Shown here: positions 1-3,552 of the stretch, piece after piece
Position numbering within the stretch: position 1 is the first letter of the stretch
Layout: each line of letters starts with the position of its first letter
DNA from: Bacteriovorax stolpii
GTDB taxonomy: Bacteria; Bdellovibrionota; Bacteriovoracia; Bacteriovoracales; Bacteriovoracaceae
Reading direction: 5' to 3'
NCBI GenBank assembly: GCA_945905815.1
Contig: CAMDQH010000023.1
Coordinates: forward strand, 1-37,961
DNA: 37,961 nt
Notes under the pieces: model-generated
Told to the model about the DNA's origin: nothing
Seen by the model: the letters and a program-made list of their open reading frames with translations, nothing else
The model's database searches: none
Program-made: the position numbers and the translations under genes

Positions 1-38
1 TAAATCTATAAGAATTTCCCAAGTGTCAAAAAGCACCT

Positions 39-68
39 TAGACACGCATTTCCATTCATGGCTATAAT
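39..68 (+). promoter_or_regulatory. Sigma-70 type promoter of the protease pair
   Basis: A -35 box TAGACA (39-44) and a perfect -10 box TATAAT (63-68) are separated by 18 bases. Transcription would begin near 75, leaving a leader of about 27 bases that carries the strong Shine-Dalgarno AGGAGGGG at 91-98. Nothing else is visible in the first 100 bases. Confidence 0.65.
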
Positions 69-101: not shown

Positions 102-776
102 GTGAAATTAACAATACCAAGGATTATGGTGATGTTTATGACTACTACTGCGTTAGCGCAAACTGTTGATTGGAGTAATTTTAATTCTAGCCTCGTCATA
201 GAAGTGACAAGACCCGAAGGAAAATTCACTTGTAGCGGCGTGGCCATCAAAGACGATATGGTCCTAACTGCGGCCCATTGTTTAGAAGGTAAAATTCTCG
301 AAATTCGTGTTTTCAATCAAGAATCCTATGACCCCAGCGCAAAATCATGGAAAGTTAAGCATTTTGAACTTCATCCAGAATACAACAAGAGCGAGTCAAA
401 TTTTAAATCAGATCTGGCGCGCATAAAGCTCTCTAGTAAGCTTCCAGCATCTACGACGATTTACCCAATCATGAAAAATGAAAGTAACTTTAAAGGTAAA
501 CTTTTACGCGTTGGCTTTGGAGCGCGTTCTCACTCTAACATCCGAACGCTTATTACCCCTGTATTCAAAGCTCTTAAGACTGAGGAAAAAGTTCTTGAGT
601 TGGATGACATGTATTCATATTCGGGAGATTCAGGCGGGCCGATTTTTATTCAACGCGACGGTCAGATGTATCTGGTAGCGATCCACTCTACTCTTTCTTA
701 TGGACCAGAGGGTAAATTCTCGTATAACCCATTAGTTTCAAGTCAAAAAGACTGGATCTTCGCTAACTGGAATTAA
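102..776 (+). CDS. Secreted trypsin-fold serine protease (copy 1)
   Basis: This is a 224-residue S1-family (chymotrypsin-fold) serine protease, probably exported. The GTG start at 102 follows AGGAGGGG and gives a signal peptide of about 19 residues ending in ALA. The catalytic triad is visible: His59 in TAAHC, Asp104 in SDLARI and Ser177 in GDSGGP. Cys44 and Cys60 can form the histidine-loop disulfide. The position equivalent to trypsin Asp189, six before the serine, is Tyr171, so cleavage after Arg/Lys is not expected. There is no IVGG-type activation site, so it may be active without zymogen cleavage. A paralogue of roughly half identity follows directly, which points to a tandem duplication. 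Substrate is unknown. Secreted proteases are abundant in predatory bacteria, but that role is inference. Confidence 0.93.
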   Translation: MKLTIPRIMVMFMTTTALAQTVDWSNFNSSLVIEVTRPEGKFTCSGVAIKDDMVLTAAHCLEGKILEIRVFNQESYDPSAKSWKVKHFELHPEYNKSESNFKSDLARIKLSSKLPASTTIYPIMKNESNFKGKLLRVGFGARSHSNIRTLITPVFKALKTEEKVLELDDMYSYSGDSGGPIFIQRDGQMYLVAIHSTLSYGPEGKFSYNPLVSSQKDWIFANWN

Positions 777-808
777 AACGTTTTTCAAATCTTTAGTATG
801 CTAGATTA

Positions 809-840
809 GTCTCACCGGAGGTTTCGGTGAGACTTTTTTT
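809..840 (+). terminator. Intrinsic terminator overlapping the next gene's ribosome site and start codon
   Basis: A perfect 9-bp stem pairs GTCTCACCG (809-817) with CGGTGAGAC (825-833) around the 7-base loop GAGGTTT. Seven T residues follow (834-840). This is a textbook Rho-independent terminator 33 bases after the first protease stop. The GGAGG ribosome site (817-821) of the second protease lies across the stem top and loop, and its GTG start (827-829) lies in the 3' arm. Confidence 0.85.
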
Positions 841-1489
841 ATTACTTTGGATCATGACAATGCCTATTTCTAGTTTTGCAAAATCACAAGAATGGGATGA
901 GTTTAATTCAAGCCTTTGCATTGAAGTAACAAGACCGAATGGCGTTTTTACGTGCACAGGTGTCGCTATCTCTTCAAATGTCGTGGTAACTGCGGCCCAC
1001 TGCCTTGATGGCGAAATTTTGAAAGTACGCATTTTCACTGACAGCTTTTATAATAAAAATAACAAATCGCTGCTCGTTAAAAGCTTTAAAACTCATCCAA
1101 ACTACAAACCAAAATCTTCACAATACTTAGCAGATGTTGCAAAAATCTTTCTCGATGAAAAACTACCTTCCCACATAAAGATTCTACCTGTTTTCAGGGA
1201 TACTATTGTGTATGGGGATATTTATCGTTTTGGATTTGGTGAGCGAAATAAAAAGAATATCCGAACTGTTATTACACCAACGTTTAAAATGATGGATCTC
1301 AAAAACAAAACTCTAGAACTAAATGACACATTCTCCTATTCCGGAGATTCTGGTGGGCCAATCTATCTGAAACAAAACAACGAGACTTACGTTCTTGCAG
1401 TCCACTCAACGCTCTCTTTTGGGCCACAAGGTAAGTACTCTTATAATCCTCTTTTAGGCAGCTACTTTAATTGGATATTTGAAAACTAA
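827..1489 (+). CDS. Secreted trypsin-fold serine protease (copy 2)
   Basis: This 220-residue S1-family protease is a tandem paralogue of the gene at 102. The triad is His58 (TAAHC), Asp103 (ADVAKI) and Ser175 (GDSGGP). The primary-specificity position is Phe169, again not the Asp of trypsin. The GTG start at 827 is preferred because GGAGG lies five bases upstream and only this start gives a full signal peptide, with a hydrophobic run encoded by the terminator's T tract. The in-frame ATG at 854 would leave too short a hydrophobic segment. Expression must depend on read-through of, or escape from, the hairpin at 809-840, so it is likely lower or conditional compared with copy 1. No separate promoter is obvious in the 50-base gap. 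Confidence 0.9.
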   Translation: MRLFLLLWIMTMPISSFAKSQEWDEFNSSLCIEVTRPNGVFTCTGVAISSNVVVTAAHCLDGEILKVRIFTDSFYNKNNKSLLVKSFKTHPNYKPKSSQYLADVAKIFLDEKLPSHIKILPVFRDTIVYGDIYRFGFGERNKKNIRTVITPTFKMMDLKNKTLELNDTFSYSGDSGGPIYLKQNNETYVLAVHSTLSFGPQGKYSYNPLLGSYFNWIFEN

Positions 1490-2276: not shown

Positions 2277-2671
2277 CTATCTATGAATTCTTTGGGTACC
2301 GTGAATTTAAATAACGGTGTATCAATTTTAAAACTCTGACCATATTTATTGATCATGTTAAAATGTCCCCACATTTCGCCAGTCATGGTTGGTAGTGGAC
2401 AAAAACTTGAATATTCAAATGACTGTTCAGGCTCAAGGTAAGGTTGTTGTCCAATGACTCCCGGACCTTCAACAAATTTCAGCTCATTTTTAGCATCTTT
2501 AATATTCCACTTACGAGAAAGTAGCTGGGCTGCGACATCGCCCTTGTTGATAATCAGGATTGTGTATTTAAAAAGATATTGAAAATTGAGAGGATTCGAT
2601 TGATCAAAATCAAAATCAGTTTTCACTTCAATACGGAAATTATTGTTTTCAGAAATATAAGAATCAATCAT
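2270..2671 (-). CDS. apaG: ApaG domain protein
   Basis: This is a 133-residue immunoglobulin-like fold protein of the ApaG family. The family hallmark VEGPGVIGQQPYLEPE is followed by SFCPLPTMTGEMWGHF and a C-terminal PLFKFTVP strand. ApaG is linked to Co/Mg homeostasis and Ap4A metabolism in enterobacteria, and its biochemical role is unsettled. The ATG at 2671 is preferred: it has GGGAG five bases upstream and gives the normal length of about 125-133 residues. A GTG at 2710 overlaps the upstream stop as GTGA and would add 13 residues. The gene follows the seven-repeat protein and lies behind a hairpin that contains its ribosome site. Confidence 0.88.
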   Translation of the reverse strand: MIDSYISENNNFRIEVKTDFDFDQSNPLNFQYLFKYTILIINKGDVAAQLLSRKWNIKDAKNELKFVEGPGVIGQQPYLEPEQSFEYSSFCPLPTMTGEMWGHFNMINKYGQSFKIDTPLFKFTVPKEFIDSY

Positions 2672-2676
2672 AAAAT

Positions 2677-2698
2677 CTCCCGAGGGTTGCCTCGGGAG
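2677..2698 (-). promoter_or_regulatory. Hairpin sequestering the apaG ribosome site
   Basis: A perfect 9-bp stem joins 2690-2698 to 2677-2685 around a 4-base loop. On the minus strand the 3' arm ends in GGGAG, the Shine-Dalgarno sequence of apaG, followed by ATTTT and the ATG. The T run is weak, so termination would be poor. The upstream stop codon (2707-2709) lies only eight bases before the stem, so a ribosome ending there would melt it. That suggests translational coupling rather than a plain terminator. Confidence 0.65.
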
Positions 2699-2706
2699 AA
2701 AAGATA

Positions 2707-3552
2707 TCACAAATGCGAAAAAACTGAAATATCAGAAAGCTTGTAATCCAAAGGTGCATTACGAATAGCACCTGAAGCTGAAATAGTAAATAAACGTCCA
2801 TCCTGGGTCGTAAAGAAATTGGTTCCAAGGTCTTTAAAATCACCAAAATCACTAGCAGAAGCAACACTCATAAGTAGACCCGTTTCAGAAACTGAGTAAA
2901 GGCTATTGTGGGCCACAAAGTAGTTACCACCCATTTTAAATTGCCAACCGTTAAAATTGCCCATTTCAAGCTTGGAGTAAACGAATCCATCTGAAGAGAC
3001 AGTAAATAGCTCTCCTTTGAGTGTTGTGAAGTAGTTACCGCCGACATAGTTGATTTGATCTAAATCTAGCCCAGGAACATTTACTTCAATTATTGCACCC
3101 AATTTTGTTATGACAAAAAGAGCAAGAACTTTTTCCATGTGTACTTTTTTTTCTGCGACAACGAAATTTCCCCCATGGTTTTTAATATTTCGAAATTCAC
3201 TTTCTCGGTCGCCTTTATAGACGAATCCTTGCTCATCAAAAGTGAACATCTTTCCAAGTTTTGAAATAAAATAATTCTCACCAAAATATTCAATATTAAC
3301 TGGAGCTTTATCTCCTTTATCTTTTGTGTACATCAAACCGTTATGATCGACAGTTCGAATTATACGGTCCTCATCTATTAGGTATCTACCACCCATTTGC
3401 TTAACCTGATAAGGAAGAAGAAAATTGCCTAAATCGTAAACCATGCCTTGATCATCAATGGTTAAAACTTTGCCAGTGTTCATAACTAGCATCGATTGAC
3501 TAAAGGCCAATGAACTGGTCAAAATGGCAAAAAAGCCTAAAAGTATTTTCAT
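2707..3552 (-). CDS. Secreted seven-repeat protein, probable beta-propeller
   Basis: This 281-residue exported protein is of unrecognised family. A signal peptide ending near LAFS/QS (18-20) is followed by seven degenerate repeats beginning near residues 21, 54, 90, 127, 171, 208 and 243. Their core is GGNYF, about six residues, then LFT(V/I)..(D/S)G.VY. Seven units of 33-44 residues with alternating hydrophobic strands suggest a single seven-bladed propeller filling the mature protein. The ATG at 3552 has GAGGAG seven bases upstream. apaG follows on the same strand. No catalytic residues are evident, and a binding or scaffold role is speculative. Confidence 0.75.
   Translation of the reverse strand: MKILLGFFAILTSSLAFSQSMLVMNTGKVLTIDDQGMVYDLGNFLLPYQVKQMGGRYLIDEDRIIRTVDHNGLMYTKDKGDKAPVNIEYFGENYFISKLGKMFTFDEQGFVYKGDRESEFRNIKNHGGNFVVAEKKVHMEKVLALFVITKLGAIIEVNVPGLDLDQINYVGGNYFTTLKGELFTVSSDGFVYSKLEMGNFNGWQFKMGGNYFVAHNSLYSVSETGLLMSVASASDFGDFKDLGTNFFTTQDGRLFTISASGAIRNAPLDYKLSDISVFSHL

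Follow-up and report, generated by a model that had tools for sequence, protein, structure and literature searches.

A hairpin over the ribosome site of a tandem protease gene in an uncultured Bacteriovoracaceae bacterium: a possible read-through insulator with a predicted transcription start inside its 5′ arm

Results

A stable hairpin covers the Shine-Dalgarno (SD) sequence and the start codon of the second of two tandem protease genes in the genome of an uncultured Bacteriovoracaceae bacterium (3.0 Mb, 141 contigs). We lean slightly towards reading it as a read-through insulator at the 5′ end of the second gene (copy 2), which would itself be served by its own start within the 5′ arm. The window, that is the whole stretch of DNA analysed, is contig 23 of this genome and comprises 37,961 nt; the genome is named G000 in the comparison within the genus. 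The features discussed are as follows:

39..68, + strand: predicted promoter of copy 1, TAGACA-18-TATAAT, with the box CAAAAAGCACCTTNGACAC upstream
102..776, + strand: copy 1, trypsin-family protease with an N-terminal signal-like segment and a GTG start (open reading frame list; PF00089, E 4e-18)
799..807, + strand: predicted extended −10 of copy 2, TGCTAGATT (TGnTAnnTT in 5/5 hairpin species)
808..819, + strand: 5′ arm of the hairpin (stem search, fold)
814..814, + strand: predicted transcription start of copy 2, inside the 5′ arm (hexamer start + 12)
817..821, + strand: Shine-Dalgarno GGAGG of copy 2, in the stem top and loop, its first base 10 nt before the GTG
823..834, + strand: 3′ arm of the hairpin, which holds the GTG start codon (stem search, fold)
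827..1489, + strand: copy 2, trypsin-family protease with a signal peptide and a GTG start (open reading frame list; PF00089; genus-wide orthologues)
834..840, + strand: T7 run, terminator-like, doubling as signal-peptide codons; unconserved in G014, with comparable runs in hairpin-less species
2676..2699, − strand: second hairpin of the same layout, with GGGAG, the apaG ribosome site, in its 3′ arm (ATG at 2671); kept in G021 and G004

The two protease genes and their start codons

Copy 1 and copy 2 are arranged in tandem, are 49% identical and are both assigned to PF00089 (trypsin family). The pair is present in 21 of the 26 genus genomes. In the gene tree each copy forms one clade of its own (support 100/100), so the duplication is older than the diversification of the genus. 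Copy 1 was found without copy 2 in the stretch searched of G024 (L022/L038) and G006 (L024/L037), two close relatives that appear to have lost copy 2. In several species (L007–L010) an in-frame stop interrupts copy 1 immediately ahead of MT(T/N)LIDW, and this copy 1 apparently has no signal peptide, unlike copy 1 of the window. The true start of copy 2 is most likely the GTG at 827–829, since this is the sole in-frame start that leaves the full hydrophobic signal segment, and since the residues after it are conserved across relatives whereas the frame ahead of it is not.

A stable hairpin covers the copy-2 ribosome site

The strict stem AGTCTCACCG/CGGTGAGACT is extended by G-U and A-U closing pairs to 12 pairs, which gives a full hairpin at 808–834 made of AGTCTCACCGGA, the loop GGT and TTCGGTGAGACT, followed by the T run to 840. 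A first-pass annotation of the window had placed the stem, the GGAGG (817–821), the GTG (827–829) and the T run (834–840) here, and all are present. The fold of 800–845 has a free energy of −19.2 kcal/mol compared with −7.0 kcal/mol in shuffles (z −5.6), and none of 200 shuffles was as stable. In a long transcript the 12 pairs cover both the SD and the start codon of copy 2 at an opening cost of 16.4 kcal/mol; for read-through RNA the SD-to-start cost ranks second among 942 SD-bearing genes, the median being 5.4 kcal/mol. Among the 968 gene starts of 1.24 Mb of the window's genome, just 7 have a stem of at least 8 pairs over the ribosome site, and 2 of these 7 also have a T tract, both inside this window; the hairpin thus exceeds chance. 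The stop codon of copy 1 ends at 776, 31 nt 5′ of the stem, in agreement with the earlier proposal that a ribosome ending copy 1 is too far upstream to melt it.

Searching Rfam at gathering thresholds gave 0 matches, and nothing convincing appeared at E ≤ 1, only weak sub-threshold matches to unrelated sRNAs and leaders. We also considered a CsrA site in the loop of the copy-2 hairpin and rejected it, as no ANGGA is present there.

The stem is conserved, the T run is not

The hairpin over SD and start codon is kept in five species: G000, G019, G021, G025 and G014, the last with TTG as the copy-2 start codon. They form a clade in both gene trees (support 97/92 for copy 2 and 99/94 for copy 1) and thus share ancestry rather than being five independent observations. 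Compensating base changes in orthologous loci, proposed by the first-pass annotation as a check, are present in two relatives when the structural rows are aligned by hand from the sequences, and the paired changes stem from two lineages: the outer pair is changed from G-C to A-T in G025, and two inner pairs are changed in G014 (C-G to A-T and C-G to G-C), which also carries one mismatch.

The T run has a different history. T-rich tails are also found in G019, G021 and G025, whereas G014 retains the stem and has no T tract, and the signal-peptide codons of G001 and G010, two hairpin-less species with short gaps, include T7 runs. We therefore ascribe the T run to hydrophobic signal-peptide codons in an A+T-rich genome. 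Stem and U tract do not persist together as one unit across relatives. Selection looks to have kept the stem for hiding the ribosome site, not the T run, and termination at the T run may be an added effect.

In the window the GC-rich stem with the U tract immediately after it is shaped like an intrinsic terminator, as had been pointed out before. The hairpin could be a plain terminator of copy 1 that overlaps the start of copy 2 through the short gap, the overlap having no regulatory role. Short-range stems exist elsewhere, and the number of terminator-like sites in this stretch (3 found) is that expected from shuffles (3.0). We consider this quite unlikely, as the overlap is found at so few starts (2/968), as the G014 stem survives without a T tract and with compensating changes in its arms, and as T tracts show no enrichment at strongly hidden ribosome sites genome-wide (19% versus 17%).

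A predicted promoter in front of copy 2

Promoter spacing in this genus can be read from genes without an SD. Ahead of SD-less genes of the window's genome a −10-like hexamer peaks exactly 12 nt before the start (33 versus about 8), and with stricter matching in 2.0 Mb of G000 there are 28 at this distance over a background of about 5; a stretch of the G015 genome displays the same 12-nt spike (TAnnnT) ahead of SD-less genes. TANNNT about 12 bp upstream is a known signature of leaderless genes (PMC3160421), and the spike in G000 and G015 indicates that the genus has leaderless mRNAs. It also sets the spacing from −10 to start, which would place the copy-2 start at A814.

Each of the five hairpin species has TGnTAnnTT directly 5′ of the hairpin at a nearly constant distance; in four of them the predicted start coincides with the A of a conserved CACC (C then A). 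The hexamer of the copy-2 −10 sits 25 nt ahead of the start codon, inside the zone enriched for SD genes of the window's genome; a recognisable −35 was not found for the predicted copy-2 promoter. Among species with a gap of 18–21 nt, TAnnnT is found 11–13 nt before copy 2 in 8 of 11, with 0.6 in shuffles and a maximum of 5 in 5000. This count uses a G015 copy-2 match that begins at CTG; it becomes 9/11 if the ATG 3 bases 5′ of the CTG is used, TAGCAT then being in place. We predict from these sequences that copy 2 has a promoter in most species of the genus, usually a leaderless one, and that in the window's clade an SD hairpin sits between this promoter and the start codon.

The first-pass annotation had envisaged a fixed ratio of the two genes and had itself named a separate promoter for copy 2 as counter-evidence. 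With a separate copy-2 promoter predicted (the extended −10 in 5/5, TAnnnT at 11–13 nt in most short-gap others), a fixed expression ratio from one transcript is unlikely and the claim is doubtful. In its full form it would have a single promoter upstream of copy 1 and a hairpin that ends most transcripts and blocks copy 2 on the rest, giving a low fixed ratio or a response to a regulator. The terminator shape of stem and T7 and the T-rich tails in G019, G021 and G025 fit such an arrangement, which we nevertheless hold to be unlikely: relatives keep a −10-like sequence ahead of copy 2, G014 has no T tract, G001 and G010 have T7 but no hairpin, and copy 2 would be nearly silent in five species, yet its protein is conserved.

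The predicted start would lower the cost of opening the ribosome site

In G000 the SD-to-start opening cost decreases from 16.4 to 6.7 kcal/mol when the RNA begins at the predicted start. Comparing upstream-started RNA with RNA from the predicted start, we obtained 16.4 and 6.5 kcal/mol for G019, 14.1–15.2 and 6.5 kcal/mol for G021, and 12.7 and 7.4 kcal/mol for G025; G014 displays only a small drop from 8.6 to 7.9 kcal/mol. The ribosome site of the short transcript is thus computed to be accessible in four species (6.5–7.4 kcal/mol), the gain in G014 being small. A residual cost of about 6.6 kcal/mol corresponds to the 85th percentile for short leaders of the window's genome.

Two further species do not fit a simple model with the start inside the hairpin. 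G020 carries a similar SD hairpin (CACCGGAGGTTCTGGTG), for which the nearest −10 candidate would leave the hairpin within the message, and in G003 the SD seems able to pair with downstream codons, which any transcript would retain. Hiding of this kind would suit a ribosome-site hairpin that is present on all copy-2 transcripts and opened in trans by temperature, a protein or a small RNA, as would the residual structure in the predicted short message. We regard opening in trans as decidedly unlikely: no family reached the Rfam cut-off, and at moderate temperature a thermometer would have to melt far more readily than a stem of 16 kcal/mol.

Under the read-through insulator that we favour, RNA entering from copy 1 would contain both arms, and the ribosome site and start codon would fold into the stable stem. 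Translation of copy 2 from this RNA would be blocked, an effect that the first-pass annotation had suggested and that computation and conservation now back; where a T run follows the stem, part of the read-through RNA might also terminate. Copy 2 would be transcribed from its own extended −10 (799–807), with a start near A814, within the 5′ arm; its own message, being devoid of the outer 5′ arm, would have an accessible ribosome site.

The upstream region of copy 1

The box CAAAAAGCACCTTNGACAC (window 27–68; L157–L165) lies upstream of copy 1; 9 of the 26 genus genomes have it, each a single time, and it is found 5′ of a TATAAT wherever copy-1 upstream regions were read. It may be the site of a dedicated regulator. 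In other species the copy-1 upstream regions (L007–L010, L019–L021 and L023) contain GGCAC/T-N5-TTGC instead. This resembles a sigma-54 −24/−12 promoter and suggests that, within the genus, copy 1 has changed from one promoter class to another. In many species, and in the window at 85–130, the copy-1 leader contains a small hairpin whose loop is, for example, ATGGA or AGGAT, and a conserved AAGGATG follows close to the start. Of the 26 genus genomes 24 have CsrA, and control of copy 1 by CsrA is possible.

The apaG hairpin and a genome-wide survey

The second hairpin of the window lies in the apaG region (window 2671–2710, minus strand) and is terminator-like; the relatives' loci compared were L134, L135, L136 and L138. 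TGATAnnnT precedes apaG in G000, G021 and G004, and also in G025 and G014, where the hairpin is absent. By the 12-nt ruler, apaG transcription would begin past TCTCC(C), which is the SD-hiding strand.

For a wider survey we compared the SD-to-start opening cost of SD-bearing genes in their real upstream sequence with that in its dinucleotide shuffles, using stretches totalling 2.0 Mb of G000 and 0.4 Mb of G015 and gene starts from a simple custom caller rather than curated annotation. Genes lying 20–120 nt behind a same-strand neighbour have an excess cost of 0.97 ± 0.20 kcal/mol (n = 192), compared with −0.05 ± 0.09 kcal/mol for gaps below 20 nt and 0.07 ± 0.10 kcal/mol for an upstream neighbour on the opposite strand (P 0.001 and 0.002 in rank tests). 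G015 repeats the 20–120 nt excess (0.91 ± 0.37 kcal/mol, n = 59, P 0.03), and a small E. coli sample gave no excess (−0.32 ± 0.48, n = 34). For 38 of the 52 strong cases, the distance from the upstream stop to the start of the pairing strand is at least 15 nt, beyond the reach of a terminating ribosome. Overlapping terminators were rejected as the source of the genome-wide signal, since strongly hidden genes have T tracts as often as weakly hidden ones.

The survey supports a genome-wide excess of upstream pairing over ribosome sites, for which read-through insulation is only a proposal. A −10 placed for a start inside the 5′ arm showed no significant excess genome-wide at score 4 or 5, and at score 6 there were 5 versus 1.2 expected (P 0.004 for one of three thresholds); as this result is weak, we do not claim a general mechanism. 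We judge it improbable, if with some chance of being right, that the genus uses read-through insulation widely. In that case genes close behind a same-strand neighbour would carry an upstream strand complementary to their ribosome site, in many instances at their own transcription start or a little ahead of it, and translation would be confined to the message from their own promoter. Further G000 genes, at C25 7849 (−), C40 19343 (+), C38 6083 (−) and C12 54676 (+), have a stretch between the −10 and the predicted start that is complementary to the gene's own ribosome site.

Discussion

Single stems that terminate or sequester an SD are familiar from the expression platforms of riboswitches and attenuators. 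Like these, the copy-2 stem could terminate as well as hide the SD; unlike these, it was seen with no ligand-binding domain or competing anti-terminator and had no Rfam match. Hairpins in read-through RNA also hide the ribosome sites of the IS10/Tn10 and IS50 transposase genes and, with the operator hairpin, of lacZ, rendering external transcription harmless; the transcripts of these genes' own promoters begin within the 5′ arm. Copy 2 would resemble them in its ribosome site, hidden in read-through RNA, and in its own predicted start within the 5′ arm. In those systems a transposon or an operator-controlled gene is protected, whereas the neighbour of copy 2 is a paralogue.

In phage T4 the ribosome sites of gene e (lysozyme), soc, gene 49 and I-TevI are hidden in early read-through RNA and freed in late RNA; long early transcripts of gene e form an inhibitory structure, and late ones without the 5′ strand are translated well (PMC3014915, PMC2988022). 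As in this group, the long transcript of copy 2 would fold its SD and start codon into a stem, and a start at the proximal promoter, predicted here, would drop the 5′ strand and yield a translatable message. Copy 2 differs in lying on a bacterial chromosome next to a tandem paralogue; its predicted extended −10 is sigma-70-like, and its T tract might also terminate. T4 has an early/late switch, whereas copy 2 is not known to have a temporal one, and the copy-2 hairpin is likened to the T4 cases by its logic rather than assigned to their class.

Read-through insulation by RNA folding is well documented in phage T4; to our knowledge, it has rarely been described between ordinary chromosomal genes. 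If the proposal for copy 2 is true, tandem paralogues could be separated without a perfect terminator, leaked transcription being silenced at the level of translation. The genome-wide excess in this genus, not seen in the small E. coli sample, would then turn into a testable question whether genes of compact, read-through-tolerant genomes are insulated by RNA folding.
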